Of a stretch of 64,000 nt of DNA, positions 7,839 to 57,994 are shown piece after piece. The DNA is taken from assembly GCF_026341125.1 (NCBI RefSeq), contig NZ_JAPEOR010000001.1:2914001-2978000 (forward strand), read 5' to 3'. The translations under genes were made by a program, and so were the position numbers. Source of the DNA: Streptomyces sp. NBC_01142. GTDB lineage: Bacteria > Actinomycetota > Actinomycetes > Streptomycetales > Streptomycetaceae. The notes under the pieces are model-generated. The model saw only the letters and a program-made list of their open reading frames with translations. It made no database searches and was not told the origin of the DNA. Each line of letters begins with the position of its first letter. The stretch's first letter is position 1.

Positions 7839-9865
<2,027 letters not shown>

Positions 9866-9869
<4 letters not shown>

Positions 9870-10612
9870 AGCTCACCCTGCGCGTCTGGCGCCAGCGGAA
9901 CCCCGACGCCCCCGGCGCCATGGCCACCTACGAAGTCGACGGCATCTCCCAGGACATGTCGTTCCTGGAGATGCTCGACACCCTCAACGAGGAGCTCATC
10001 CTCAAGGGGGACGAGCCGGTCGCCTTCGACCACGACTGCCGCGAGGGCATCTGCGGCGCATGCAGCCTCGTCATCAACGGCGACGCCCACGGCCCGGAGC
10101 GCACCACCACCTGCCAGCTCCATATGCGCTCCTTCAAGGACGGCGACACCATCGACGTCGAGCCGTGGCGGGCCTCCGCCTTCCCCGTCGTCAAGGACCT
10201 GGTGGTGGACCGGTCGGCGTTCGACCGGATCATCCAGGCCGGTGGCTACATCAGCGCTCCGACCGGCGCGGCTCCCGAGGCCCACGCCACAGCGGTGCCC
10301 AAGCCCGACGCGGACTACGCCTTCGAGCACGCCGAGTGCATCGGCTGCGGCGCATGCGTCGCAGCCTGCCCCAACGGCTCCGCGATGCTTTTCACCTCGG
10401 CGAAGATCAACCACCTCAATGTGCTCCCACAGGGCGCGCCCGAGCGCGAGACCCGGGTGCTGGACATGGTGGCGACGATGGACGACGAAGGCTTCGGCGG
10501 CTGCACGCTGACCGGAGAATGCGCCACCGCCTGCCCCAAGGGCATCCCGCTGCCGTCCATAGCGGCCATGAACAAGGAGTGGCTGCGGGCCACCCGCAAG
10601 GCCAAGCGCTAG
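9866..10612 (+). CDS. sdhB: Succinate dehydrogenase iron-sulfur subunit
   Basis: The 248-residue electron-transfer subunit carries the expected cysteine clusters. The 2Fe-2S motif CREGICGAC is near residue 60 with a distal Cys near 85. [11 protein letters not shown] is near residue 158, and a C-terminal [14 protein letters not shown] is near residue 212. These supply the 4Fe-4S and 3Fe-4S centres that pass electrons from the flavoprotein to the membrane cytochrome. Overlap with sdhA is ATGA. The gene is last in the operon and converges on the UvrA-like gene across a 119-bp gap in which I see no clear terminator. Confidence 0.92.
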
Positions 10613-10731: not shown

Positions 10732-13206
10732 TCATTGCCCGGAGCCCAGCGCCCGGGCCAGATACGGGGCCGTAGGACCGCCGTCCGCACCCGCCACGTC
10801 GGCGGGAGACCCGGCGGCGACGATACGTCCGCCCTCGTCGCCGCCGCCCGGGCCGAGGTCGATGACCCAGTCCGCGCCCGCGACCACGTCCATGTCGTGC
10901 TCGACGACCACGACCGAGTGGCCCGCCTCGACCAGACCGTGCAACTGCCGCATCAGCACCTCCACATCGGCGGGATGCAGCCCGGTCGTCGGCTCGTCCA
11001 GGACATAGAGGGTGTGGCCTCGGCGCAGTCGCTGCAACTCCGTGGCGAGCTTGATCCGCTGGGCCTCACCGCCCGACAGCTCGGTCGCCGGCTGGCCGAG
11101 CCGCAGATAGCCGAGACCCACATCGAGCAGGGCGCGCAGACTGCGTACGGCGGCGGGCACACCGGCGAAGAAGTCCGCGGCGGCCTCGACCGTCAGGCCG
11201 AGCACCTCGGCGATGTTCAAACCCTCGTAGCGGACCTCGAGCGTCGCCGGGTTGTAGCGGTCGCCGTCGCAGTCGGGGCACGGGGCGTACGTACTGGGCA
11301 GGAAGAGCAGCTCCACCGAGACGAATCCCTCGCCCTGGCAGGTCTCGCAGCGGCCGCCCGCCACATTGAAGGAGAACCGGCCCGCCTTGTAGCCGCGGGC
11401 ACGCGCCTCGTCGGTGGCGGCGAAGAGCTTGCGTACGACGTCGAACAGCCCGGTGTAGGTGGCCAGGTTGGAGCGGGGAGTACGGCCGATGGGGCGCTGG
11501 TCCACCTGCACCAGACGCTGCACGGCCGCCAGACCCTCGACCGAGACACAGCCGGGGGGAGCGGGCGATGCGCTCTCCGTGGACGCCGTGGTGTCCGTGG
11601 TGTCCATGATTTCCGAGGAGTCCGGGGGCTGTGAGCCGAGGTGCTCGGCGAGCACCCCCGCAAGCACCTGCCCCACCAGCGTCGACTTCCCCGAACCCGA
11701 TACACCTGTCACCGCGGTGAACACCCCGAGCGGGAACCGCGCGTCCACGCCCCGCACATTGTGCCGGTCGACCCCCTTGAGCCCCAGCCAGCCCGACGGC
11801 GTACGGACCTCGCGCTCCGGCACGGCCTGCCGGTGGAAGAGGAACCGCCGCGTGGCCGAAGCCTCGACACCGGCCAGGTCGGCCACCGGACCACTGTGCA
11901 GCACCAGACCGCCGTGCTCGCCCGCGTGCGGCCCCACATCGACCAGCCAGTCCGCGCTGCGGACGACATCCAGATGGTGCTCCACCACGAAAACCGAGTT
12001 GCCGGCCGCCTTCAGCCGTTCCAGCACGACCAGCAGTGCCTCGGTGTCGGCGGGATGCAGACCGGCCGACGGCTCGTCCAGGACGTAGACGACGCCGAAC
12101 AGCCCCGAACGCAGCTGGGTGGCCAGCCGCAGCCGCTGCAGTTCCCCGTTGGACAGGGTGGGAGTGGTGCGGTCGAGGCTGAGGTAGCCCAGGCCCAGCT
12201 CGGTGACCGTGGCGATGCGGGCGAGCAGATCGGCGGTCAGCACGCGCGCGGTCTCACCGCCGCCGACCGAGCCGGATTCCAGCACCTCGGCGAGCGAGGT
12301 CAGCGGCAGGCCTGCCAGGTCGGCGATCGTACGGCCCGCGAACGTCACCGCCAGCGCCTCGGGACGCAGTCTGCTGCCCCCGCACGACGGACAGGGCGCA
12401 CTGGCCAGGAACCGCTCGGCCCTGGTGCGCAGCGTCTGGCTCTTGGAGTCGGCGAAGGTGTGCAGCACATAGCGCCGGGCGCTCATGTACGTGCCCTGGT
12501 ACGGGCGTTGGATACGGCCCGCATCCCGTACCGGATGCACCGTGACGACCGGCTGCTCGTCGGTGAACAGGATCCAGTCCCGGTCCTTCTGCTCCAGCTC
12601 CCGCCACGGCCGGTCGATGCCGTACCCGAGTGCGTCCAGCACATCACGGAGGTTCTTGCCCTGCCACGCACCCGGCCAGGCGGCGATCGCGCCTTCGCGG
12701 ACCGAGAGCGAGGGGTCGGGAACGAGAAGCTCCTCGCTGGTGCGGTGGACGCGGCCGAGACCGTGGCACTCGGGGCATGCCCCGGCGGCGGTGTTCGGCG
12801 AGAACGAGTCCGAGTCCAGCTGCTCGGCGCCCTCGGGATGGACGCCTGCCCGCGAGAAGAGCATGCGCAGCGAATTGGAGAGCGTGGTGACCGTGCCGAC
12901 CGAGGAGCGCGAGGAGGGTGAGGAACGGCGCTGTTCCAGCGAGACCGCGGGCGGCAGACCGGTGATCTCGCCGACCTTGGGCGCGCCCACCTGGTGGATC
13001 AGCCGCCGGGCGTAGGGGGCGACGGACTCGAAGTAGCGCCGCTGCGCCTCGGCGTAGATCGTGCCGAAGGCGAGCGAGGACTTCCCGGACCCCGAGACGC
13101 CGGTGAAGACGACCAGGGCGTCGCGTGGGATGTCCACATCGACGCTGCGCAGATTGTGCTCCTGGGCGCCGCGTACGCGGACATACGGGTCATGGGGGCT
13201 GTGCAT
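10732..13206 (-). CDS. UvrA-like ABC ATPase (short UvrA paralogue)
   Basis: An 824-residue tandem ABC ATPase of the UvrA family. The N-terminal Walker A is [12 protein letters not shown] (about residue 35) with signature [12 protein letters not shown]. The C-terminal Walker A is [13 protein letters not shown] with signature [15 protein letters not shown]. Zinc-finger cysteine pairs are seen in [26 protein letters not shown] and CPDCDGDRY. It is shorter than housekeeping UvrA (about 950-1000 residues), like the UvrA2/drug-resistance subgroup that has lost part of the UvrB-interacting region, so a role in intercalator tolerance is more likely than global repair. ATG 13206 is chosen because the conserved fold begins right after it. 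An inverted repeat abuts the start codon. Confidence 0.82.
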
Positions 13207-28009: not shown

Positions 28010-29395
28010 GCTTGCCGTGACGGTTGGGCAGGTCGGTCGTTTATCAGGTCATGGGTGGGGAACTTGCTGATGCCCGGTCGTGGGCCGGTGAACTGAAGGC
28101 CTTGCACGAGCGGTTCGTGCACCGTTTCTCCAGGTCGGAGCCGCGGGAGTCGGCTCTCGCCTATATGCGGGGGCTGATAGCTCCGCTGGAGCGGAAGAAC
28201 GGCTGGACGCTTGCCGAGGAGGCCGGGCATGGCGGCCCGGACCGGATCCACCGGCTGCTGAACCGGATCGACTGGAGCGCGGACGAAGTCCTGGACGACG
28301 TGCGGGACTACGTCGTCGAGCACCTCGGCGATCCGGATGCGGTGCTGATCGTGGACGACACCGGGTTCCTGAAGAAGGGCATCCGCTCGGCCGGGGTCCA
28401 GCGCCAATACTCCGGAACCGCCGGCCGGACGGAGAACTCCCAGATCGGGGTCTTCCTCGCCTATGCCGGCGGACGCGGCCGCACATTGATCGACCGCCGC
28501 CTCTATCTGCCCACCTCATGGACCGATGACCGCGACCGGTGCCGGGCCGCGGGCATCGACGACACGGTCGCCTTCGAGACGAAAGTGGTGATGGCCAAGG
28601 CCATGGTCCGCCGGGCGATCACGGACCGGATCCCGTTCCGGTGGGTGACCGCCGACGCCGCCTACGGCTTCTCCAAGGGCTGGCGTTCTGAGCTGGAGCG
28701 GGCGGATGTCTTCCACGTGATGGCCACCACCCGGCATGACACCGTCGTCACCCGCTGGGCCATGGACCACCCCGTTCACGATCTGTTTCCCGGGCTGTCC
28801 CGGCAGAAGTGGAAGCGCCGTTCCTGCGGCAACGGCGCCCACGGCCCGAGGGTCTACGACTGGGCGAGGGTCGAGGTCCGTCCCTGGCACCGCGAGGACC
28901 GTCGTCACTGGGTGATCGCCCGCCGAAGTGTCCGCCGGCCCGAGGAGATCTCCTACTACATCGCCTACTGCCCGGCCGACACCACACTCGACGAGCTGAT
29001 CCGCATCGCGGGCAGCCGGTGGGCGGTCGAGGAGTGCTTCCAGACCGCGAAGCAGGAGTGCGGCCTGGACGACTACCAGGTCCGCCGCTACGACGGCTGG
29101 CACCGCCACATCACCCTGGCCATGGCCGCACACGCCTGCCTCACCGTCCTGCGGGCCCGTGAACTCGACACCGGGAAAGCAGAAACGGATCCTCCCAGCT
29201 CATACCCCTGACCCTCCCCGAACTCAGACGCCTGATCACCCGCCTCACTCGACCCCGCCCAAGCACCGACCACGTCCTGCACTGGTCACACTGGCGCCGC
29301 AGACGACAACACCAAGCCCGCATCAGCCACTACAAACGACGCGGCCACACACCACCAGAAGCCAACAAACCATCAGAGCAAAGACCGTTGCAGTA
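27998..29395 (+). mobile_element. IS701-family insertion sequence with CTAG target duplication
   Basis: A 1398-bp element bounded by perfect 12-bp inverted repeats: TACTGCAACGGT at 27998-28009 and ACCGTTGCAGTA at 29384-29395. The flanking CTAG at 27994-27997 and 29396-29399 is the four-base target duplication, matching the YTAR preference of the IS701 family. A further C/G pair makes the original target CCTAGG. One transposase gene fills most of the element. Intact ends and duplication suggest a fairly recent insertion. Confidence 0.9.
28051..29211 (+). CDS. IS701-family transposase
   Basis: A 386-residue DDE transposase. The catalytic acids are seen in VLIVDDTGFLKKG (first Asp), FRWVTADAAYG (second Asp) and RWAVEECFQTAKQE (Glu). 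Its start is taken as ATG 28051, though TTG 28024 is in frame. The reading frame ends early at 29211. From 29184 the minus-one frame continues as NGSSQLIPLTLPELRRLI and stays open, through a basic Trp-Arg-rich tail, to a TAG inside the right terminal repeat at 29397-29399. That continuation looks like the usual IS701 transposase C-terminus, so the gene is either frameshifted or uses -1 frameshifting. Confidence 0.85.
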   Translation: MGGELADARSWAGELKALHERFVHRFSRSEPRESALAYMRGLIAPLERKNGWTLAEEAGHGGPDRIHRLLNRIDWSADEVLDDVRDYVVEHLGDPDAVLIVDDTGFLKKGIRSAGVQRQYSGTAGRTENSQIGVFLAYAGGRGRTLIDRRLYLPTSWTDDRDRCRAAGIDDTVAFETKVVMAKAMVRRAITDRIPFRWVTADAAYGFSKGWRSELERADVFHVMATTRHDTVVTRWAMDHPVHDLFPGLSRQKWKRRSCGNGAHGPRVYDWARVEVRPWHREDRRHWVIARRSVRRPEEISYYIAYCPADTTLDELIRIAGSRWAVEECFQTAKQECGLDDYQVRRYDGWHRHITLAMAAHACLTVLRARELDTGKAETDPPSSYP

Positions 29396-33817: not shown

Positions 33818-34681
33818 CTAAGCGGGCGCGTCGCCCTCGAGGCGGCGCACCCGCTCCGTGTCGCAGGTCCGGGGGCAGGTGCCGCAGGCCTCGGCGGGGC
33901 GGATCGTGTAGTAGAGGCAGCAGCCGAGACGCGTGCGGGTGGTGTACGACTGTCCTTCGCGGCCCGTCAGCCGGCGGAAGTCGGCACCGCCGGGGAACGG
34001 TGGGACGGGCCCCGGAAGCAACTCTCCGGCCGCCCGCACCGCTTGCTCCTCCTGCCCGAGCATGCGTCCGAGGTACCAGATACCTGACACCAGGTCGTCG
34101 CCGACCATGCCCCACAACGCCCGTGGCCCCCGCCGCAGTTGCGGGCCGATTGCGGCCAGCAGGGGGCGTACGTGGTCGGCGACAGCCGCCCGCAGCTCGT
34201 CCCGCAGCGCTTCCTCGTGCGCCACCACGCGGGCGCCGGGCAGCTCGGCCGCCGGATCGTCGGGGAGGCACGCGAAGCCGCCCGGGACGATTCCGTAGGC
34301 CCCCGTGGTCAGGCTGATCCGGACGTCGTACGGGCGGATCCTCGGCACGCGCCGTTCCAGGTACCAGGGGCCGCTCATCAGCAGGCTGACGGACCAGAGG
34401 TAGTCGTGCAGCGCGCGGGAGGCGACGACATCGCGCCGGGCGGTGTGTGCGTGACGGTTGTGGATGCGCCGCGCCTCGGCGTCGAGGAACGCGTCGAGGA
34501 GTTCCGGACGGCCCGCCAGTTCGGCGCCGTCGGCCCAGCCCTGGGCGGCCGGTGAGCCGGGTTCCGCGATGTCCACCTGCAACGACTGGCAGAGTACGGC
34601 GAGTCGTCGGTAGGTCGAGGTGAGCAGGGCGGAGCAGCTCACGACGGGTGCGGCCAGTGCAAACCCCGGGGCCAGGGTCAC
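33818..34681 (-). CDS. FhuF-like siderophore-iron reductase (2Fe-2S)
   Basis: The 287-residue protein ends with LGCCLYYTIRPAEACGTCPRTC: the CC-x(10)-C-x(2)-C pattern that binds the 2Fe-2S cluster in FhuF-type ferric siderophore reductases. The preceding region has a FhuF-like layout (WYLGRMLGQEEQA, GGFACLPDD). FhuF proteins release iron from imported ferric siderophores in the cytoplasm. A DtxR-type iron box lies 40 bp upstream, so expression should rise under iron starvation. It is divergent from the siderophore biosynthesis operon, supporting a dedicated role in recycling its product. Confidence 0.8.
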   Translation of the reverse strand: MTLAPGFALAAPVVSCSALLTSTYRRLAVLCQSLQVDIAEPGSPAAQGWADGAELAGRPELLDAFLDAEARRIHNRHAHTARRDVVASRALHDYLWSVSLLMSGPWYLERRVPRIRPYDVRISLTTGAYGIVPGGFACLPDDPAAELPGARVVAHEEALRDELRAAVADHVRPLLAAIGPQLRRGPRALWGMVGDDLVSGIWYLGRMLGQEEQAVRAAGELLPGPVPPFPGGADFRRLTGREGQSYTTRTRLGCCLYYTIRPAEACGTCPRTCDTERVRRLEGDAPA

Positions 34682-34720
34682 GGGTACTCCTCAACACCAA
34701 AGCGAATACGAGGGAGGAGA

Positions 34721-34739
34721 TAAGGCAAGGCTCACCTTA
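34721..34739 (-). promoter_or_regulatory. Iron box upstream of the FhuF-like gene
   Basis: TAAGGCAAGGCTCACCTTA has matching TAAGG/CCTTA arms and follows the actinobacterial DtxR/IdeR/DmdR1 consensus TTAGGTTAGGCTCACCTAA. It lies 40 bp from the FhuF-like start codon. Repression by Fe2+-loaded DmdR1 is inferred. Confidence 0.75.
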
Positions 34740-34795
34740 ACCACACTGAGGATCTCGATGGCGAACCGGGCCCGCCCCGCGGCGAATTGACAGAC

Positions 34796-34814
34796 TTAGG
34801 TATGCCTAACCTAG
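34796..34814 (+). promoter_or_regulatory. Iron box upstream of the siderophore operon
   Basis: TTAGGTATGCCTAACCTAG closely matches the DtxR/IdeR-type 19-bp iron box. It lies about 156 bp before the ATP-grasp start and on the operon side of the divergent gap, so it should control the four biosynthetic genes. Confidence 0.78.
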
Positions 34815-34970
34815 GCTCTCCGTTCGTGATCCAGAACAGAGGGGTCGCTCTCCCGGGCGGCCTGCCCGCCCGGCGGATGCCGCTCATCCCCGCCGGTGCA
34901 GGCGCGTCGGCGCCGTGCGCCGCGCCGGGAACCTGTCCCACCCGACCTTGCGCGCGGAAGTGATCCCTTC

Positions 34971-36161
34971 ATGCAGCTGTACCTGCTCGCCCTCAACCCG
35001 ACCGACTCGGTCACCGAGGGATTCCTCCCCGCCGCCCACCGGCTCGGCCTCGACGTGACCGTGCTCACCGACCGGCCCGAGGCGCACCGTGCCGTCCACC
35101 CGGACATCGAGCTCCTGGAGTGCGACGTACACGACTTCCGTGCGGTCATCACCCGCATAGCGACGCACCGCACTGCGGACGCGGTTTTCACCAACAGCGA
35201 CCACCTGCAGACCCAGGCGGCCCTGGCCGCAGGTTACTTCGGCCTCCCCGCCAAGAACTGGCAGGCCACGCTGCGTACCAAGGACAAGGCGGAGATGCGC
35301 CGCCACCTCTCCGCCACCGGCGCCGACACCGTCCGGGCGGCGGAGCTCGCCGCCGGACAGGACCCGGCCGGAGCACTCGGCCTCGACGTGCCGTACCCCT
35401 GTGTGGTCAAGCCGCGCGAGGGCGTGGCCAGCGAGGACGTGGTACTGGCACAAACGCCCGGAGACCTGGTGCTGCGCTGCAAGGAGATCCAGGCGCGCCG
35501 GCCGCGGGCCGCACTGGTCGTCGAGGAGTATCTGGCCGGCGAGCTGTACACCCTGGAGACGCTCGGAGACGGCCGCATCCGCCATGTGCTGGGCGGATTC
35601 CATACCGAGCTGTCCCCACCGCCGTACTTCATCGAGGAGCGGCTGTCCTACGTCCCGGTCCACCCCGAGCCGGTGGTGGCGCAGGTCCTCGCCCAGCTGG
35701 ACGCGCTCGGAGTCGGCTTCGGCGCCTGCCACACCGAGTTTGTGGTGCACGAAGGACGCGCACGCCTCATCGAGGTCAACTACCGTGCCATCGGCGACCA
35801 GTGCGACCTGCTCCTCGCCCAGTTGCTGGACGTTCCGCTCTTCGAGCACATCCTCCGTACGCACCTGGGTGAGCCGCTGCCTGCGGATTTGGGGATACGG
35901 ACCGACGGCGTGGCCCGGCTGGACTATCCGTGTGCGGAGCGCGCCGGAACGTTGCGGGCCGCACCCGCCGCAGCCGATCTGGCGTTCGGTGACGTGAAGC
36001 TGACATACCGTCCGCTGCGCGGGATCGGCGAGCGGCACGAGCTCTACCGCACCAACCGCGACTTTCTGGGCGTTGTCCGGGCCATCGGTGCCGACAAGGA
36101 ATCCGTGGACCGGGTCGTGGCCGACTTCCTCGCCGCGCAGCGCTGGGAGATCACGCCGTGA
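34971..36161 (+). CDS. ATP-grasp ligase of the siderophore operon
   Basis: A 396-residue ATP-grasp enzyme, probably forming an amide between a carboxylate and an amine. An N-terminal Rossmann-like preATP-grasp domain (MQLYLLALNPTDSVTEGFLP) is followed by the ATP-grasp fold (about 110-310): KDKAEMRRHLSATGAD, YPCVVKPREGVASEDV, ALVVEEYLAGELYTLE and the Mg-binding HTEFVVHEGRARLIEVNYR. It resembles the carnosine synthase/L-amino-acid ligase branch. The stop overlaps the next gene by GTGA. ATP-grasp enzymes are unusual partners of IucA/IucC synthetases, so its role may be an extra condensation such as coupling an amino acid to the siderophore core. ATG 34971 is preferred over longer in-frame starts. 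Confidence 0.8.
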   Translation: MQLYLLALNPTDSVTEGFLPAAHRLGLDVTVLTDRPEAHRAVHPDIELLECDVHDFRAVITRIATHRTADAVFTNSDHLQTQAALAAGYFGLPAKNWQATLRTKDKAEMRRHLSATGADTVRAAELAAGQDPAGALGLDVPYPCVVKPREGVASEDVVLAQTPGDLVLRCKEIQARRPRAALVVEEYLAGELYTLETLGDGRIRHVLGGFHTELSPPPYFIEERLSYVPVHPEPVVAQVLAQLDALGVGFGACHTEFVVHEGRARLIEVNYRAIGDQCDLLLAQLLDVPLFEHILRTHLGEPLPADLGIRTDGVARLDYPCAERAGTLRAAPAAADLAFGDVKLTYRPLRGIGERHELYRTNRDFLGVVRAIGADKESVDRVVADFLAAQRWEITP

Positions 36162-37999
36162 CGGAGAAGCGGCCGGAGGCGGGGAAGGAAACGCGGGCGG
36201 GGGCGGTGACGAAGGCGGGGGCGGTGACGGGGACGAAGGCGACGGAGGCCTCCGCGGCCGAGGCGGAGCTGCTGCAGCGCGTGCTCGGCGCGCTGCTGCG
36301 CGAGGACGTCGTGGGCCTGCGCACCCGCGGCACCGTCCTCGAGCGGCCGGACGGAGCCTGGCTGCGCCTGGCAACCGATGACGGGGACGCGCTGCTGCTG
36401 CCGGTCCACGAGGACGGATTCCAGTGCGAGAGATCCGCCCGGCTGCCCCTGCTGAGACGGGAGTCCGACGGGACGGAGCTGACCACCGCCGACGGCATTC
36501 TGACTGTGCTCGGCGCCCTCGCCGACCCCGTGGACCGCCGCGGCTTCGACGCGTTCGCCGAGGAGTGCCGGCAGACGCTGGAGACCCTGCGCCTGCACGC
36601 CGACACGCAGGACGAGGTCACCACAGCGCTCGCCGACCGGCACGGCGCCGATCCCGCACAGTGGACCGGCCTCGCCGCAGGTCTGGCCCACGACACCCTT
36701 GCCGCCCGCCTCGACCACCCCGTCTACCCGACAGGACGCGGCCGCTCCGGGCTCACAAAGCACCAACTGCGCACGTACGCACCGGAGTTCCATCCCCGCT
36801 TCGCTCTGCGCTGGCTCGCCCTGCCCATCGAAGAGGTCACCTCGCAGGGCGGGGACCCTGCGGCGGACCCGGCCTGGCCGTGGCCCGCGCCGACGGCGCT
36901 CGGACTGCCGGAACTCGACGGCAGCCACCTCGCCCTCCCCGTCCACCCACTGACCGTGGGCGAACCGCTGCGGGACGCGCTGCGCGCCACCGGACTCGAC
37001 AGCCGGGCCGTCCTGGCCGAGAGACCGTACCTGGAGGCCGTACCGACCCTGTCGATGCGGACCGTCGCCCTCGCCGCGCACCCCCGCATCCATCTCAAAC
37101 TGCCCCTGGCCACCTCCACCCTGGGCCTGCTCAACCGGCGCACCATCAAGCCCGGCACGCTCGTCGACGGTGCTGCCGGCCAGCGCCTGCTGCAGACCGT
37201 GATCGCCCGCGAGCACCGCTTCCGCGACAGCATCCTCCACGCCGACGAGACGCGGTTCGCCCATGCCGGCCATGAACTCCTCGCCGTACTGGTGCGCCGC
37301 AACCCCGCCGGTCTGGACGACGCCGTCGTCGTACCGATGGCGGCCCTGCTGAGCCGGGCACCCGGTGGCCGACTGCTGATCGACCACCTCGCCGACCGCT
37401 TCTACGGCGGCGATCCGCTCGCCCTCCTCGATGCCGCTCTCACTCTGCTCTTCGACTGGCAGACCATGCTCTTCGGCTACGGGATAGCCCTGGAGTCCCA
37501 CCAGCAGAACATCTCTCTGGTCCTGGAGGAGGACGGGGGCCGCCCCCGCATCCGGCTGCTGCTCAAGGACAACGACGGCCCGCGCATCAACACCGTCCGG
37601 ATGCGCGAGACTCTCGGCGCCGACGCGCCGGACCCGGCGGCGTTCGACGACGTACGGATCTTCGGTGACAGCGACGGGCCCGTCGTCGATCTGTTCACCA
37701 CCATCACCGTCCACCTGTGCGCGGGAGCGTACGCCTTCGGGCTCGCCCGGCACGGCCGCGCCCCGCTCCACCGGCTGCTCGGACTCGTCCGCGAACGGCT
37801 CGGAGAGGCCGTGGCACGGCTCGGGACGCGGCCGGGACAGCCCGGCGCCGTACTGCGCGAGCACGTCCTGGACGCGGCGCACCTGCCCGTCAAGGCGATG
37901 GTGACCGCCGGTACCCTGTTCACCAAGGACCGCTCGGGTGCGTCCGACATCAACAAGCACTACACCACCGGTCCCAACTACCTGTTGCGCGGAGTGTGA
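36158..37999 (+). CDS. IucA/IucC-family siderophore synthetase 1 (NIS synthetase)
   Basis: A 613-residue NRPS-independent siderophore synthetase, which adenylates a carboxylate such as citrate and condenses it with an amine or alcohol. Family segments are HPVYPTGRGRSGL near residue 189, RTYAPEFHPRFALRWLAL, the catalytic region GYGIALESHQQNISLVLE and LLLKDNDGPRI, and the C-terminal FhuF-like transporter domain (ending in KAMVTAGTLFTKD). Two departures are notable: the first motif lacks the usual second His and Lys of HPxHPxxKxRxG, and the common RDfEG motif reads KDNDG. An unusual Lys/Thr/Ala N-terminal tail precedes the fold. It starts with GTG overlapping the ATP-grasp stop. Confidence 0.85.
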   Translation: MTEKRPEAGKETRAGAVTKAGAVTGTKATEASAAEAELLQRVLGALLREDVVGLRTRGTVLERPDGAWLRLATDDGDALLLPVHEDGFQCERSARLPLLRRESDGTELTTADGILTVLGALADPVDRRGFDAFAEECRQTLETLRLHADTQDEVTTALADRHGADPAQWTGLAAGLAHDTLAARLDHPVYPTGRGRSGLTKHQLRTYAPEFHPRFALRWLALPIEEVTSQGGDPAADPAWPWPAPTALGLPELDGSHLALPVHPLTVGEPLRDALRATGLDSRAVLAERPYLEAVPTLSMRTVALAAHPRIHLKLPLATSTLGLLNRRTIKPGTLVDGAAGQRLLQTVIAREHRFRDSILHADETRFAHAGHELLAVLVRRNPAGLDDAVVVPMAALLSRAPGGRLLIDHLADRFYGGDPLALLDAALTLLFDWQTMLFGYGIALESHQQNISLVLEEDGGRPRIRLLLKDNDGPRINTVRMRETLGADAPDPAAFDDVRIFGDSDGPVVDLFTTITVHLCAGAYAFGLARHGRAPLHRLLGLVRERLGEAVARLGTRPGQPGAVLREHVLDAAHLPVKAMVTAGTLFTKDRSGASDINKHYTTGPNYLLRGV

Positions 38000-38005
38000 C
38001 CGGCG

Positions 38006-39796
38006 ATGTCCCCAGCCCATTCCTCTGCTCGTTCGTCCGCCCAGTCCTCCCCTCCCACCGGGCTGCCCACCGCCGACCAGGCCGTGGCCCACACCCTCCT
38101 CAACTGTCTGCTCCGCGAGGTGTCGGGCCCCGAGCACCAGACCGCCGTCATCGACGACCACCTGCTGCTGCGTCTGCCGCTGCGCGGGGTGCTGCTCCGG
38201 GTCGCCCTGCGCCGTACGTCCCTCCTGGGAGCGCACCGCTTCACCGGCCCGGTCACCGAACAGACCGACGGCGGCTGGTCCGAGCTGGACTGGCTCCGCC
38301 TCGCCGAGTACACGCATGCAGAGCTCTCGCTCCGTACGGGGTCGCGCAACGACGAATTCCTGGACCAGATCGTCTCGAGCCATCAGGGAGTCTCCTCCGC
38401 GCTGGCCGCGCCCCGTCCGGCCGTTGAGGCGCCGCATGCCGGAGTCGGGTCCCCTGACTGGCTCGTCACCTATCTCGCATCCGAGCAGTCCCTCGTGCTC
38501 GGCCACCGCTTCCACCCCACCCCCAAGGCACGCAGCGGCGATCGGGCCTCCTGGTCCGCCTATGCCCCGGAAGCCGCCGCCTCCTTCCCGCTGCGCCTGC
38601 TCGCCGTCCGCGACCACCTGATCGCGCAGGAGTCCGCCGAGCCCGGTGCCACCGACCCGCTGGACCGACTGGACCCGCTGGACCGGCGGGCGGTCCCCGA
38701 CGGCTACCGGCTGCTGCCCGCACACCCGTGGCAGTACGGACTGCTGCACGAACACCCGGCACTGCGGTCGGCGCTCGACCGGGGCGACATACTCGACCTG
38801 GGCCTGGGCCGCAGGCGCTTCACCGCCACCGCGTCCGTACGCACCGTCTACGACGGCGACACGTTTCTGAAGTTCAGCCTCAACGTCCGTATCACCAACT
38901 GCCTGCGCAAGAACGCCAGTTACGAGCTCGCCGGTGCGGTGGCCCTCACCCGTCTGCTCGGTCCGGCCCTCACCGACCTGACTGCCCGTTTCCCGGGCAG
39001 TGGCATGCTCCGCGAACCCGCCTACCGCAGCCTCGCACTCCCCGGCCCGGACGGCCGGCCCGACCTCGCGCTCCTCGAAGGCTTCGGGGTGATCGTCCGT
39101 GAAGGGCTCACCGGCCACCTCGTCCCCGGCGCCACCCCGCTCCTCGCCGCGGCCGTCGCCGACGAGTACGCCACGGGTCCCGGCCATATCTCCCGCCTGC
39201 TGGCCGATACGGATCAGGGAACAGCGCTGGAGTGGTGGCAGACGTACCTCACGCTGCTCATCCCGCCCGTCCTGGCCGCCTACTTCGACCACGGGCTGGT
39301 CCTCGAACCCCATCTGCAGAACGTCCTCGTCTGTGTCGACGCCGACGGCAGGCCCGCCCAGGTCCTCTTCCGCGATCTGGAAGGCACCAAGCTGATTCCC
39401 GAGCACCACGCCCTCACCCTGGCCGCGCTGCCGGAGGAGGTCGCAGGCCCGATGACGTACGACGCACAGCGTGGCTGGGACCGCGTCGTCTACTGCCTGC
39501 TGGTGAACCATGTCGCCGAAATGCTCGCCGCCCTCGCCGATCTGCACCCGCAGACCGAGCCCGCCCTGTGGTCGCAGGTCCGCCGCACACTCCAGGACTA
39601 TGCCGACGAGCACGGCTGCCCGCCCCGCCTGAACGCCCTGCTGGCAGGCGCGCCACTGCCCGCCAAGGCCAATCTGCTGACCCGCTGGGAGCGCACTGCC
39701 GACCGCGAGGCGGGCTATGTCCGCGTGCCCTCTCCGCTCGCCGAGGACGTGCTGTCCGGAGCGATCCGCACCGATGACGTCTGGAACGCCCGATGA
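38006..39796 (+). CDS. IucA/IucC-family siderophore synthetase 2 (NIS synthetase)
   Basis: The 596-residue second synthetase is closer to the family norm: LGHRFHPTPKARSG (about residue 165), YRLLPAHPWQYG, FLKFSLNVRITNCLRKN, DHGLVLEPHLQNVLVCVD and LFRDLEGTKLI. The last two carry the substrate- and ATP-contacting residues. Two NIS enzymes acting in series typically build a symmetric or pseudo-symmetric citrate- or dicarboxylate-based siderophore. The gene starts six bases after the first synthetase and overlaps the decarboxylase gene by ATGA. Confidence 0.88.
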   Translation: MSPAHSSARSSAQSSPPTGLPTADQAVAHTLLNCLLREVSGPEHQTAVIDDHLLLRLPLRGVLLRVALRRTSLLGAHRFTGPVTEQTDGGWSELDWLRLAEYTHAELSLRTGSRNDEFLDQIVSSHQGVSSALAAPRPAVEAPHAGVGSPDWLVTYLASEQSLVLGHRFHPTPKARSGDRASWSAYAPEAAASFPLRLLAVRDHLIAQESAEPGATDPLDRLDPLDRRAVPDGYRLLPAHPWQYGLLHEHPALRSALDRGDILDLGLGRRRFTATASVRTVYDGDTFLKFSLNVRITNCLRKNASYELAGAVALTRLLGPALTDLTARFPGSGMLREPAYRSLALPGPDGRPDLALLEGFGVIVREGLTGHLVPGATPLLAAAVADEYATGPGHISRLLADTDQGTALEWWQTYLTLLIPPVLAAYFDHGLVLEPHLQNVLVCVDADGRPAQVLFRDLEGTKLIPEHHALTLAALPEEVAGPMTYDAQRGWDRVVYCLLVNHVAEMLAALADLHPQTEPALWSQVRRTLQDYADEHGCPPRLNALLAGAPLPAKANLLTRWERTADREAGYVRVPSPLAEDVLSGAIRTDDVWNAR

Positions 39797-41121
39797 CGGT
39801 CTCCACGAACCCTGTTGCCCCCACCACCCCTGTTGCCCCCACCACCCCTGTCGTCCCGGCCCCCCTTGCTGTCCCCACCGCGCCGGTGCGCGAGCACGCC
39901 CTGTCGCTCACCGCCGAGAATCTGCCCGCGTACCTGTACGACCTCGGCGCACTGCGCGCGCACGCCGCGTCCGTACGATCGGCGCTTCCCGAGCGCGTCG
40001 AGCTCTACTACGCCGCCAAGGCCAACCCGGAACCGGAGATTCTCGCCACGCTCGCCCCGTACGTGGACGGCTACGAGGTCTCGTCCGGCGGCGAACTCGC
40101 CCATGTCGCCAAGGCCGTGCCGGGCCGTCCACTGGCCTTCGGCGGCCCCGGCAAAACCCCGGCCGAGACAGCAGCGGCCCTGGAACTGGGTGTGGAACGC
40201 TTCCATGTCGAGAGCGTCTCCGAACTCCATATGCTGGCGAACCTCGCCGCCCGCCTGGCACCCGACGCACACATCGCGGTCCTGCTCCGCTTCAACCTTC
40301 CCTTGGCGGACGGTTCGTTGGAGGCCAGCGCCCTGTCCATGGGCGGCCGCCCGACCCCGTTCGGACTGGACCCGTCCCAGGCGGACACCGCGGTCCGCAT
40401 CCTCACCGACGGCACCCACCCGCAACTGGAGCTGCGCGGCATCCACGCCCACCTGGCCAGCGGCCTTCAGGCCCCCGAACAGCTCGCGGTCGCCGAGTCC
40501 GTGGTGGCCTGGGCCGCGAGCCTGGCCGCCCGCCACGGCATCTCCCTCCCCGAGGTGAATGTCGGCGGCGGCATGACGGTCGACTACACGGACCCGGAAG
40601 CCCGGTTCGACTGGCCGGCCTACGGCGCGGGCCTCGCCCGCCTCACCGCCGCCCACCCGGACCTGCTCCTCCGTATCGAACCGGGCCGCGCCCTGACCGC
40701 GTACTGCGGCTGGTACGCCACCGAGGTGCTCGATGTGAAGCACAGCCACGGCGAGGAGTTCGCGGTCGTCCGCGGTGGCACCCACCACCTGCGCACCCCC
40801 GCGACGAAGGGCCACGACCAGCCCTGCGCGCTGCTCCCCGTGGACACCTGGCCCCACCCCTGGCCGCGGTCCATGGCCAGGCAGGACCTGGTCACCCTGA
40901 CCGGCCAGCTGTGCACACCGAAGGACGTCCTCGCCCGCCGGGTCCCGGCGGCGGGGCTGAGGGCGGGAGACCGTGTGGTGTTCGCGCTGGCCGGGGCGTA
41001 CGCGTGGAACATCTCTCACCACGACTTCCTGATGCACCCCCGGCCGGGCTTCCACTTTCTCGACTCCTCCCTGCCGGCCGGGCCGTTCAATGGTGATCAG
41101 CAGCCGTCGAACGAGGACTAG
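39793..41121 (+). CDS. PLP-dependent decarboxylase (Orn/Lys/DAP, LysA/SbnH-like)
   Basis: A 442-residue fold-type III PLP decarboxylase. The PLP lysine is in LYYAAKANPEPEIL (about residue 76). Other family features are IHAHLASGLQ, VNVGGGMTVDY, LLRIEPGRALTAYCGWY and the substrate-binding cysteine loop GQLCTPKDVL near the C-terminus. A Pro/Thr/Val repeat tail of about 35 residues precedes the fold. In staphyloferrin B synthesis the comparable enzyme SbnH decarboxylates a citryl-diaminopropionate intermediate; here it could make a diamine or decarboxylate an NIS intermediate. It is last in the four-gene operon. Its TAG stop lies inside the left arm of a large inverted repeat. Confidence 0.85.
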   Translation: MTVSTNPVAPTTPVAPTTPVVPAPLAVPTAPVREHALSLTAENLPAYLYDLGALRAHAASVRSALPERVELYYAAKANPEPEILATLAPYVDGYEVSSGGELAHVAKAVPGRPLAFGGPGKTPAETAAALELGVERFHVESVSELHMLANLAARLAPDAHIAVLLRFNLPLADGSLEASALSMGGRPTPFGLDPSQADTAVRILTDGTHPQLELRGIHAHLASGLQAPEQLAVAESVVAWAASLAARHGISLPEVNVGGGMTVDYTDPEARFDWPAYGAGLARLTAAHPDLLLRIEPGRALTAYCGWYATEVLDVKHSHGEEFAVVRGGTHHLRTPATKGHDQPCALLPVDTWPHPWPRSMARQDLVTLTGQLCTPKDVLARRVPAAGLRAGDRVVFALAGAYAWNISHHDFLMHPRPGFHFLDSSLPAGPFNGDQQPSNED

Positions 41122-54057: not shown

Positions 54058-56124
54058 CTACCGGCGGGTGCGTACGAGCAGATAGAGGAAGTACGGCGTG
54101 CCGATCACCGCGGTCATCAGGCCGGCGCCGAGCTGGGCAGGCGCGATCACCGTCCGGCCGATCAGGTCCGCGACGCAGACGAGCAGGGCACCGAGGAGCA
54201 CCGAGACCGGAACCACCCGGGCGTGCTGCCGGCCCACCAAGGCCCTGGCCGCGTGCGGCGCCACGAGTCCCACGAAGGCGATCGTGCCCGCGGCGGCCAC
54301 GGCGGTGGCGCTGAGCAGGACGCACAACACGAGGAAGCCCAGGCGTCCCCGCGACAGGTTGAGCCCCAGAAGCTTCGGGGTGTCCTCGTCCAGCGACACG
54401 AGATCGAGCTCGGTGCGCCGCAGGACCGCGACGAGCAGGCCCACGCAGAGCACGCCCGCGAGAGGAGCCACGTCGGGCAGGGTCCGCCCGTAGGTGGAGC
54501 CCGACAGCCAGGTGAGCGCCTTCGTGGCGTTGAACGGGTCGGTGAGGACGATGAGCAGGCTGATGAACGCGGCGGTTCCGGTGGCGACGCCGAACCCGAC
54601 GAGGACGAGCCGGTTCTGCTGGAACCCGCCCCGCGCGGCGAGCCCGAAGACGAGGGCGGAGCTGGCCGCGGCGCCCGCGAACGCCGCGCCGGCCACGCTC
54701 CACGAGCCGGCCGCGGGCACCGTCGTCACGAGGAGCACTGCGCCGAGCGCGGCCCCGCCGGAGACGCCCAGGGTGGCGGGCTCCGCGAGCGGATTGCGGG
54801 TCACGGCCTGGACGAGTGTCCCTGCCAGGGCGAGTGCCGCGCCGGCGAGGAGCGCCGCGAGGACGCGGGGCACCCGGGTGTCGAGGACGAACCCGACGGT
54901 CTGGCCCGCTCTGCCCTGCGCCCAGTTCACCACGTCTCCCAGCAGCAGCTTGCTGTCGCCCAGCAGCACGGCGGCGATGGCGACGCCGACGAGCACCGCC
55001 ACCAGGACGGCCGTGGTGGTCAGGAAGACGGCCCGGCTCCTGATGCGCAGCCGGTCGGGCGCGGCGGCTCCGGCGGTGTCCCGGACGCGGGTTGCCATCA
55101 CGATCAGGAACACGGCGCCGACGAGGCTGGTGGCAACGCCCGTGGGCACGGCGACCGCCACGTCCGCCGCTACGAAGGTGCGCAGGAGCACGTCCGAGCC
55201 GAGCACCAGCACCGCACCGGCCAGGCCCGCGATCGGAACGCCCGTACGCGCCCGGGAGAACGCGCGGAACCTGCGGGCGAGCGGGCGGACCAGGGCGGGG
55301 GCGCACAGGCCGACGAAGCCGATCGGTCCGGCGAGCGTGACGGCAGCCGCGGAGAGCAGCGCCGAGAGCACGACTGTCGTGACACGCGTGGAACGCACGG
55401 GGACGCCGAGGCCGCGTGCCGCGTCGTCGCCGAGGGCCAGGGTGTCCACCCGGCGGGCGACGAGCAGCAGCCCGACGAGTCCGGCGAGGCCGATCGGCGC
55501 CATCTGGAGCACGCCGTCGAACCCGTTCTGCGAGATGCTGCCCTGGTTCCACCGGAAGATGCCCTCCGTCTGCTGGGGGAACAGCAGGAGCATCCCCTCG
55601 GTGACGGCGGTCAGGCCGAGGGTGAGGGAACTGCCGGCGAGAACGAGCCGTACGGTGCCGGCGCCCAGGCCCGACACACCGAGCACGGCCGCCGCAGCGG
55701 CGAGGCCGCCGACGAACGCGACGCCGGAGGCGGCGAACAGCGGCAGCGAGACACCTGTGACCGCTATCAGCCCGAGGGACAGGTAGGAACCCGCGTTCAC
55801 CGCAAGGGTGTCGGGTGAGGCGAGCACGTTGCGGCTCACCGCCTGCAGGGCGGCGCCCGCCATGCCGAGCACGGCCCCGACGAGCAGCCCCGCGGTCATC
55901 CGCGGCAGCCGGGAGGCGATGATGACGGACGCGTCGTCCGGGTCGGCGCGTCCGGTGAGCGCCTTCCAGATCTCGGGGGCGCCGACGGAGGCCGTGCCCT
56001 GGGTGATGTCGACGACCGCGAGGGCGGCGACGAGGAGGACCAATGCGGCCGTCACCGCGGCCGCGCCCGTCCGGGACGGGGCCGTCGACGGACGGGTGGC
56101 GGGAGTGGAAGCGGTGACGGCCAT
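54058..56124 (-). CDS. Fused FecCD-type siderophore ABC permease (FhuB-like)
   Basis: A 688-residue membrane protein made of two FecCD permease halves in one chain, as in E. coli FhuB. Each half has the signature pattern: SRLPRMTAGLLVGAVLGMAGAALQAVSRN and TRVPRVLAALLAGAALALAG near the start, and GPIGFVGLCAPALVRPL and GTIAFVGLVAPHAARAL near the end (coupling-helix region). About 18-20 transmembrane helices are expected. It starts five bases after the binding-protein gene. Together with the next two genes it forms a ferric-siderophore importer under an iron box. Confidence 0.9.
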   Translation of the reverse strand: MAVTASTPATRPSTAPSRTGAAAVTAALVLLVAALAVVDITQGTASVGAPEIWKALTGRADPDDASVIIASRLPRMTAGLLVGAVLGMAGAALQAVSRNVLASPDTLAVNAGSYLSLGLIAVTGVSLPLFAASGVAFVGGLAAAAAVLGVSGLGAGTVRLVLAGSSLTLGLTAVTEGMLLLFPQQTEGIFRWNQGSISQNGFDGVLQMAPIGLAGLVGLLLVARRVDTLALGDDAARGLGVPVRSTRVTTVVLSALLSAAAVTLAGPIGFVGLCAPALVRPLARRFRAFSRARTGVPIAGLAGAVLVLGSDVLLRTFVAADVAVAVPTGVATSLVGAVFLIVMATRVRDTAGAAAPDRLRIRSRAVFLTTTAVLVAVLVGVAIAAVLLGDSKLLLGDVVNWAQGRAGQTVGFVLDTRVPRVLAALLAGAALALAGTLVQAVTRNPLAEPATLGVSGGAALGAVLLVTTVPAAGSWSVAGAAFAGAAASSALVFGLAARGGFQQNRLVLVGFGVATGTAAFISLLIVLTDPFNATKALTWLSGSTYGRTLPDVAPLAGVLCVGLLVAVLRRTELDLVSLDEDTPKLLGLNLSRGRLGFLVLCVLLSATAVAAAGTIAFVGLVAPHAARALVGRQHARVVPVSVLLGALLVCVADLIGRTVIAPAQLGAGLMTAVIGTPYFLYLLVRTRR

Positions 56125-56129
56125 GGGTG

Positions 56130-57113
56130 TTACTTCTTCGTCAGTGCCTGGACGACGGAGTCGACGTACTTGCCCATCGATTCGGGGCCGCCGAACATCC
56201 AGATGCCGTCGGGCAGCCGGTGGACGTTGCCCTTCTTCACGAACGGCAGCGAGGTCCACACCTTGTCCTTGGCCAGGACGCCGTTGAACGGCGTGCTGTT
56301 CTCGTCGCCTTCGCTGCCGATGTAGGCGAACTGCACGTCGCCGAGCTTGGTGAGGCCCTCGACGTCGGTGGTGGCGAGTCCGTAGGCCGGGTCGCCCTTG
56401 ACGGTCCAGGCGTTCTTCAGGCCGATCTTCTCGTTGACGGCACCGATGAGCGAGCCGCTGGTGTACGGCCTGATCGAGACCTGCTTGGAGACGACGTAGC
56501 CGTCGGCGAAGGCGTACTTCGCGTCGGCGAGCTTGGCGTCGGCGAGGGCCTTCTTGCCCTCGGCGAGCTTCGCCTCGAAGTCCTTCTTGAGCTTCCCGGC
56601 CTGCTCCGTGGTGCCGGTGGCCTGGGCGATGAGGTCGAGGTTCTTGGTCATCTCCCCGATCGGGTCCTTGGCGTCGGCGGGCCGAACCTCCAGGACCGGG
56701 GCGACCTTGCGCAGCTGCTTCACGGCGGCCGGCTTCAGGTCGCTGGTGGCGACGATGAGGTCCGGCTTGAGGGAGGCGATGGTCTCCATGCTCGGCTCGC
56801 CGCGCGTGCCGATGTCCTTGGGCTCGTTCTTCAGCGGGACTGCGGTGTCCCAGGTCTTGTAGCCCTTGACGTCGGCGACGCCGACGGGGTCGACGCCCAG
56901 CGAGATCAGGCTCTCGACGACGTTCCACTCGGTGCCGACGACCTTCTTGGCCGGCCCGTCGAGCTCCACCTTCGCGCCGGTCGCGTCGGTGAGGGTGATG
57001 GGCTCGGCGCTCTTCTTCTTGGCGTCGTCGGCGGCGGGCTCGGTGGTACCGCAGGCGGTCAGGGTGAGGGCCGCCGCGGTCGCGACCGCGGCGGTGAGGA
57101 GGAGGCGTCTCAT
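56130..57113 (-). CDS. Siderophore-binding lipoprotein (FecB/FepB family)
   Basis: A 327-residue substrate-binding protein of the FecB class. It has a signal peptide with lipobox LTAC (Cys near residue 21 in LTLTACGTTEP), then PITLTDATGAKVELDGPAKKVV, SLISLGVDPVGVADV, IASLKPDLIVATSD and a long helix (KLKKDFEAKLAEGKKALADA) linking the two lobes. It delivers ferric siderophore to the fused permease. The start overlaps the ATPase stop by ATGA. The siderophore bound is unknown; the product of the NIS operon 13 kb away is a reasonable candidate. Confidence 0.9.
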   Translation of the reverse strand: MRRLLLTAAVATAAALTLTACGTTEPAADDAKKKSAEPITLTDATGAKVELDGPAKKVVGTEWNVVESLISLGVDPVGVADVKGYKTWDTAVPLKNEPKDIGTRGEPSMETIASLKPDLIVATSDLKPAAVKQLRKVAPVLEVRPADAKDPIGEMTKNLDLIAQATGTTEQAGKLKKDFEAKLAEGKKALADAKLADAKYAFADGYVVSKQVSIRPYTSGSLIGAVNEKIGLKNAWTVKGDPAYGLATTDVEGLTKLGDVQFAYIGSEGDENSTPFNGVLAKDKVWTSLPFVKKGNVHRLPDGIWMFGGPESMGKYVDSVVQALTKK

Positions 57114-57970
57114 GAGGTGGGGCTGAGCCTTTCGGTTCGTGTGTGGTGGCGGCCGATCGCGCGGGTGCGCAGCCGGCCCGTCAGGGGATCGGTGTCGACT
57201 TCGATGCGGATCCCGTAGGTCTCGGTCAGCTGCTGCGCCGTCAGCACGTTCTCGGGGAGGCCGTCGGCGATGATCCGTCCCGCCTCGAGCAGCACGATCC
57301 GGTCGGCCACGGCCGCGGCCTGGTCGAGGTCGTGCAGGACGGCACCAACGGCGATTTGGTGGTCGTCCGCCAGGTCGCGGACGAGATCGAGGAGTTCGAT
57401 CTGGTAGCGCAGGTCGAGGTAGGTCGTCGGCTCGTCGAGGAGCAGCACGCCGGTCTCCTGGGCGAGGCAGCAAGCGAGCCATACGCGCTGGAGCTGTCCT
57501 CCGGAGAGATGCTCGGCTCCCCGTTCGGCGAGTTCCGCGACGCCCGTCATGGCGAGCGCGCGGTCCACCGCGGCCCGCCCGTCCGGGTCCGCCTTGCCCC
57601 AGCGCCCCCGGTACGGGTAGCGGCCGAACTCGATGACGTCCCGTACGGTCAGCCCGCTGGGCGTGGGGCGTCCCTGTGTCAGCAGGGCAACACGGCGCGA
57701 GAACTCACGGGAGGTCAGAGCAAGGCCGTCGGTGTCGGCGTCGATGACGATGGTGGCGGTCCTGGCCCGCTGCAGCCGCGCGAGCGTGCGCAGCAGCGTC
57801 GACTTCCCGCTGCCGTTCGGTCCCACCAGGACGGTCACTTCGCCGGGCCGCAGCGTCAAGGACGCGTCGTGCACGACATCGACACCTTCGTACGCCACGG
57901 TGACACCCGTGGCCGACAGTTCATGACCGCGGGGGCCCATGGCCTCGGAGGTCTCTTCACCAACGTTCAC
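57110..57970 (-). CDS. Siderophore ABC transporter ATPase (FecE/FhuC family)
   Basis: A 286-residue ABC ATPase: Walker A LVGPNGSGKSTLL near residue 47, Q-loop VALLTQGRPTPSGLTVRDVIEFGRYPY (split by family convention), signature LSGGQLQRVWLACCLAQ, Walker B VLLLDEPTTYLDL and switch His in VLHDLDQAA. First gene of the operon. GTG 57970 lies only six bases from the iron box, implying a very short leader; ATG 57940 is a possible alternative start. Confidence 0.9.
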   Translation of the reverse strand: MNVGEETSEAMGPRGHELSATGVTVAYEGVDVVHDASLTLRPGEVTVLVGPNGSGKSTLLRTLARLQRARTATIVIDADTDGLALTSREFSRRVALLTQGRPTPSGLTVRDVIEFGRYPYRGRWGKADPDGRAAVDRALAMTGVAELAERGAEHLSGGQLQRVWLACCLAQETGVLLLDEPTTYLDLRYQIELLDLVRDLADDHQIAVGAVLHDLDQAAAVADRIVLLEAGRIIADGLPENVLTAQQLTETYGIRIEVDTDPLTGRLRTRAIGRHHTRTERLSPTS

Positions 57971-57975
57971 GACGC

Positions 57976-57994
57976 AAAGGTTAGCCTAACCTTA
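57976..57994 (-). promoter_or_regulatory. Iron box of the siderophore uptake operon
   Basis: On the minus strand TAAGGTTAGGCTAACCTTT, a near-perfect palindrome matching the DtxR/IdeR consensus TTAGGTTAGGCTAACCTAA. It directly precedes the ATPase gene and should repress the importer when iron is sufficient. Confidence 0.85.

Follow-up and report, generated by a model that had tools for sequence, protein, structure and literature searches.

A probable vibrioferrin-type siderophore operon, compact and lacking the exporter gene pvsC, in Streptomyces sp. NBC_01142

In Streptomyces sp. NBC_01142 an ATP-grasp ligase, two IucA/IucC (NIS) synthetases and a PLP decarboxylase are encoded side by side, and the question arises as to what kind of siderophore such a set of enzymes would make. 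The first-pass annotation regarded an ATP-grasp enzyme in place of a third NIS enzyme as unusual and could match the combination to no known product. Our results lead to a different answer. The combination is the gene set and the gene order of the vibrioferrin (pvs) loci minus pvsC, as found in both plasmids and genomes, and the operon is very probably a vibrioferrin-type siderophore operon in a compact form without this exporter gene. That is to say, it is a known kind of system in compact form, and the oddity once claimed for it does not hold.

Operon layout and predicted iron control

The operon comprises four plus-strand open reading frames, which are referred to as A, B, D and E, in the window (the whole stretch of 64,000 nucleotides analysed here). 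Their junctions are GTGA, 6 bp and ATGA, just as first annotated, and their domains are confirmed by Pfam. The features discussed in this work are as follows.

33818..34681, minus strand: FhuF-like 2Fe-2S siderophore-iron reductase, divergent from the operon (FhuF_C, PF11575)
34721..34739, plus strand: iron-box-like site nearer fhuF, 1 mismatch to the degenerate iron-box pattern
34796..34814, plus strand: iron-box-like site nearer the operon, 2 mismatches to the degenerate pattern
34971..36161, plus strand: A, PvsA-like ATP-grasp ligase (Pfam ATP-grasp_4)
36158..37999, plus strand: B, PvsB-like NIS synthetase (Pfam IucA_IucC and C-terminal domain)
38006..39796, plus strand: D, PvsD-like NIS synthetase (Pfam IucA_IucC and C-terminal domain)
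39793..41121, plus strand: E, PvsE-like PLP decarboxylase (Pfam Orn_Arg_deC_N)
54058..57970, minus strand: FecCD-type ABC importer (ATPase, binding protein and fused double permease), about 13 kb from the operon
57976..57994: iron-box-like site by the FecCD-type importer

For gene A a longer frame begins at 34896, while the alignment of the relatives begins at 34971. No N-hydroxylase or acyltransferase is encoded among the four operon genes, in agreement with the previous exclusion of a desferrioxamine- or aerobactin-type hydroxamate pathway, and the reading as an NIS carboxylate siderophore operon, probably based on citrate, is retained. As for the divergent gene, its product reaches the cut-off of FhuF_C at its C-terminal end (28.2 bits versus 20.5) and carries the cysteine pattern CC-x10-C-x2-C, but its NCBIfam FhuF score falls well short of the cut-off (26.8 versus 63.85).

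The iron box proposed ahead of the operon is in fact represented by two iron-box-like sites, both inside the fhuF-A intergenic gap 34682-34970. The degenerate pattern occurs three times in the 64 kb, where 100 shuffled versions average 0.03. Scoring with a 19-base iron-box consensus picks out these three again and nothing else in the window with at least 13 matches, and 218 of the 220 tiles of 290 bases score 12 or less. Judged from these predicted sites, the four-gene operon is apparently iron-controlled, and a DtxR-family (DmdR) repressor would be the candidate to act on them.

The surroundings offer two further observations. To the left of the fhuF-like gene, at a distance of about 4.6 kb, a DDE-superfamily transposase gene lies at 28024-29211 of the window (plus strand). 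Outside the window, the 10.1 Mb genome has three more IucA/IucC genes, one single and one pair, at C2:1892967-1893716 and C1:1684242-1687680, and the strain may accordingly make other NIS siderophores.

Gene order shared with the pvs loci

A tblastn search of the ATP-grasp protein against plasmids gave 13 records with one place covering at least 80%, of which 8 were examined. Five annotated loci, in Vibrio, Pantoea, Cupriavidus, Rhodococcus and Piscirickettsia, have the order ATP-grasp, IucA/IucC, MFS transporter, IucA/IucC and type III PLP enzyme. A is 33-48% identical to their ATP-grasp proteins, one of which carries a PvsA annotation; in line with this annotation, we take the first pvs gene to be the ATP-grasp gene. 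The plasmid loci of Streptomyces chartreusis, Nonomuraea and Embleya, which come without gene annotation, have A-B-D-E with no C. A similar picture comes from the scan of named genomes: among the best 80 of 560 loci, which include Pseudomonas fragi, Azotobacter, Xanthomonas and Edwardsiella, A-B-C-D-E is collinear in 76, and in the other four (L047, L069, L084 and L120) the locus sequence ends early. The Azotobacter chroococcum locus (L079) belongs to the same best 80 of 560, and vibrioferrin is reported, in passages of PMC7527475, from cultures of A. vinelandii and A. chroococcum.

The vibrioferrin operon pvsABCDE is that of Vibrio parahaemolyticus, and a review (PMC5577590) covers the operon, how it was disrupted and how it was expressed in E. 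coli. This species is not among the best 80 of 560 named loci, and the likeness was judged through Vibrio fortis (L006), whose proteins are 30-44% identical to those of the window, and through the other loci. The set and order of A, B, D and E are the same, and so are the protein families: the PvsA-like ATP-grasp enzyme, the two NIS synthetases and the PvsE-like decarboxylase are all present and collinear. Unlike in pvs, the MFS exporter PvsC is missing between the synthetases, where only a 6-bp gap is left, and a divergent FhuF-like gene takes the place of the receptor and importer genes that adjoin the V. fortis locus. Hence the window operon is related to the pvs operon but lacks C, and is in this sense incomplete. 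The vibrioferrin-type reading is based on the A-B-(C)-D-E order, on AcsD as the nearest relative of D, and on the residues kept, the latter two of which are taken up below.

With this reading the product would be vibrioferrin or a near analogue, and the latter overlaps with an alternative in which the same enzyme logic yields a vibrioferrin analogue with another amino acid for alanine or another keto acid for 2-oxoglutarate. The window proteins are 27-51% identical to their proteobacterial counterparts, with A and B at only 27-48% when the Rhodococcus proteins are included, and in each protein 15 to 20 near-invariant columns differ, so that another amino acid or keto acid can be entertained. 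Moreover, A and B each have 16 sites at which the Streptomyces-type and the named loci keep different residues (at least 90% on each side). On the other hand, the set and the order are the same and the near-invariant columns are mostly kept (64/79 in A, 77/97 in B), and a change of building block is regarded as possible but not likely.

Printed accounts from Streptomyces itself also bear on the earlier statement that no match was known. According to passages of PMC9394381, avsABCD of S. avermitilis (SAV7320-7323) is a vibrioferrin-like polyhydroxycarboxylate siderophore cluster, with four genes as in the window, the last of them a diaminopimelate decarboxylase; it is listed there with three siderophore synthetase components rather than with an ATP-grasp enzyme and two, and the two clusters are likened by description only. 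Two other papers list for S. tunisialbus an antiSMASH region that is 18% similar to vibrioferrin (PMC7385001) and mention an alpha-hydroxycarboxylate siderophore, with no structure named, from Streptomyces sp. S073 (PMC12093950). Our literature search, covering mainly freely accessible papers and parts of them, found no report of vibrioferrin isolated from Streptomyces.

Absence of the exporter and the linked importer in many Streptomyces loci

The A protein is found in 47 of 199 Streptomyces genomes at an E value of 1e-60, the own genome counted, with identities of 59-84% across the genus. Flanks taken from 40 of the 46 other carriers have A, B, D and E collinear in every case, 15 with C and 25 without. 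Together with the window and the three plasmid loci they make up 44 actinobacterial loci, 15 with C and 29 without. Beside the cluster, a binding protein of the type seen at vibrioferrin loci is encoded in 14/15 loci with C and in 0/29 without, and a FhuF-like homologue is present at 27 of the 44 (the window's own counted), namely 12/15 with C and 15/29 without.

The absence extends beyond the locus. C is detected genome-wide in 15/15 full-form genomes, while at an E value of 1e-20 it is missing from 25 of 26 C-less genomes, the own included; the own genome has no PvsC homologue at this threshold and only two partial matches of 25-27%. In the remaining C-less genome (L127) the B-D gap has a clear remnant of C, covering residues 20-45 and 285-374, and weaker traces are seen in the same gap of L142 (E value 0.001), L010 (0.018) and L125 (0.48). 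In L127 the remnant lies at 9745-10157, and the matches to E at 11938-13147 fall into two pieces in different frames, from either sequencing error or decay. As for the binding protein of the full form, it is found at 63% identity or more in 14/15 full-form genomes, as distant members only (37-48%) in 16/26 C-less genomes, and not at all at an E value of 1e-40 in 10/26, among them the own genome, which gave a match of 32% identity.

A tree was built from the four proteins (52 loci, 1902 columns), and the node of the window has a support of 0.66. On it the presence of C requires 9 changes by Fitch counting and 13 under loss only; a recount meant to collapse weak nodes also gave 13 and is not an independent check. 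Since C occupies the same position in distant phyla, the changes are read as losses, and the operon in the window has most likely arisen from a form with the exporter, though transfer of whole clusters could bring the counts down. What is mildly new is that scattered lineages are without the exporter and the linked importer, with the four enzymes apparently selected for, and this repeated absence of transport genes may be the sole part unexpected to specialists.

Another carrier was considered within the window. The FecCD-type importer at 54058-57970 has binding-protein relatives in 74/199 Streptomyces genomes at an E value of 1e-60, which co-occur with the siderophore cluster in 16 genomes against 17.5 expected. 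Its occurrence thus looks independent of the cluster, and it was dropped as the carrier of this siderophore and left unassigned. In L147 (14267-15022), L007, L008 and L009, a gene of the aldolase/citrate-lyase family adjoins the cluster, similar in kind to the citrate synthase SbnG of staphyloferrin B; no match to it is found near the window cluster.

Iron-box-like sites recur in the relatives. A site with at least 14 of 19 matches is found in all 14 fhuF-A gaps tested, and among C-less loci without a close fhuF, at least 14 matches occur upstream of A in five of six, the sixth having 13. In two full-form loci, where importer genes lie upstream of A, the 103-105 bases directly upstream of A score 8 and hold no iron-box site. 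Moreover, the dN/dS of A, B, D and E, estimated by the Nei-Gojobori method between the window and 7 relatives, is 0.17-0.34, from which the four enzymes look selected for.

These facts can be put together in a further way, in which the exporter and importer were repeatedly stripped while the enzymes stayed under selection, with a product that either travels by general carriers or has ceased to be a classical siderophore that is secreted and recaptured, and may be altered in structure or act as a citrate chelator inside the cell; we consider this unlikely. It is very unlikely that the operon is a relic, decaying and without a product since its transporters were lost. The missing exporter and linked importer would suit a relic, as would L127 with its C remnant and its E matches in two frames, but the four window frames are all open, the dN/dS is low, and the iron-box-like sites recur. 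With the vibrioferrin-type reading, the product would be secreted and taken up again via transporters encoded elsewhere, and the divergent FhuF-like reductase would release the iron.

The four enzymes and a candidate route

For enzyme D alone, AcsD is the top PDB match (229 bits), and a profile of 6 sequences gives 447 bits for AcsD, 246 for IucA and at most 130 for others; the NCBIfam SbnF cut-off is not reached (42.3 versus 900). E434, R493 and K554 of D align with E442, R501 and K563 of AcsD, and these three serine-recognition residues are identical in D of 81/81 named and 43/43 actinobacterial relatives (124 aligned). Altogether 13 of 13 AcsD sites checked, these three and ten further ones with R305 among them, are kept in the same 81/81 and 43/43 proteins. 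The achromobactin pathway, to which AcsD belongs, shares this likeness to D and, unlike the window operon, presumably has no ATP-grasp gene. By these residues, as compared with AcsD, D appears to be an AcsD-type (citrate, serine) synthetase.

The AcsD paper (PMC3323832) gives a basis for reading these sites. AcsD esterifies citrate with L-serine; E442 serves for amino-group recognition and as base, while recognition of the carboxylate is ascribed to R501 and K563. Mutants show that two of the three residues matter for the acceptor, and the role of the third is assigned from the structure and from a mutant that was poorly expressed (PMC3323832). Serine is preferred over ethanolamine, and amines, diaminopropionate among them, react about two times faster than their alcohol counterparts (PMC3323832). 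The preference for serine leads us to place decarboxylation after esterification, while the faster reaction of amines means that the residues alone would also allow a diamine acid.

For enzyme E the best PDB match is 6knh (275 bits), presumably SbnH of staphyloferrin B, followed by BtrK (140 bits). The motif GGTHHxRTP is found in 81/81 named pvs-type decarboxylases and in 43/43 actinobacterial ones (window included, L127 dropped), where 6knh has GGTQQFRLP. The motifs GAYA[WH][NH]ISH and QLCTPKD, the latter of which is also in 6knh, occur in 81/81 named and 42/43 actinobacterial proteins, and both misses are L139, whose match covers only 83%. For B, a profile of 6 proteins gives 7cbb, which we take to be SbnC of staphyloferrin B, as the top PDB match (156 bits) and IucC next (100 bits), and the best NCBIfam match is SbnC at 58.3 bits against a cut-off of 700. 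The nearest PDB matches of A are L-amino acid ligases, which are weak (37 and 30 bits) and fit an amide-forming ligase, so the amide bond formerly proposed for this enzyme is still its likely role. A passage of an ATP-grasp paper (PMC4431377) cites the vibrioferrin operon paper for siderophore peptide-like-bond ligases.

Taking these together, we propose that D would convert citrate to its adenylate and then to an ester with the side chain of L-serine, after which E would decarboxylate O-citryl-serine to O-citryl-ethanolamine. A would then join alanine to the free amine via an acyl phosphate, and B would adenylate 2-oxoglutarate and join it to the amine of alanine, the keto acid cyclising thereafter. 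In passages of two reviews (PMC6836290, PMC5577590) PvsA makes the citrate ester and PvsE acts on free serine, an order from which ours would depart; the 2017 review (PMC5577590) calls the pvs enzyme functions untested.

The decarboxylase had been thought either to make a diamine or to trim an intermediate. The second of these, on a citryl intermediate, is likely; the first is disfavoured, since an AcsD-like D with the L-serine recognition residues favours the route from O-citryl-serine to O-citryl-ethanolamine. If 6knh and 7cbb are SbnH and SbnC, the solved structures closest to E and B come from the staphyloferrin B (sbn) pathway, which uses three synthetases, no ATP-grasp enzyme, and diaminopropionate instead of serine. 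A staphyloferrin-B-like or otherwise diamine-based citrate siderophore, which these relatives and the acceptance of 2,3-diaminopropionate by AcsD-type enzymes would suit, is extremely unlikely, as the operon has only two NIS synthetases and an ATP-grasp enzyme, E carries the GGTHHxRTP of pvs-type loci, and B and D stay below the SbnC and SbnF cut-offs.

To sum up, the vibrioferrin-type reading would bring into Streptomyces a type of carboxylate siderophore that is weak and photolabile and has been known chiefly from marine Gram-negatives, with such a cluster in about a quarter of the sampled species as counted by the ATP-grasp gene. It also spells out in which order the pvs enzymes would act, and operons that have or lack the transporter genes form natural pairs on which this order can be tested.
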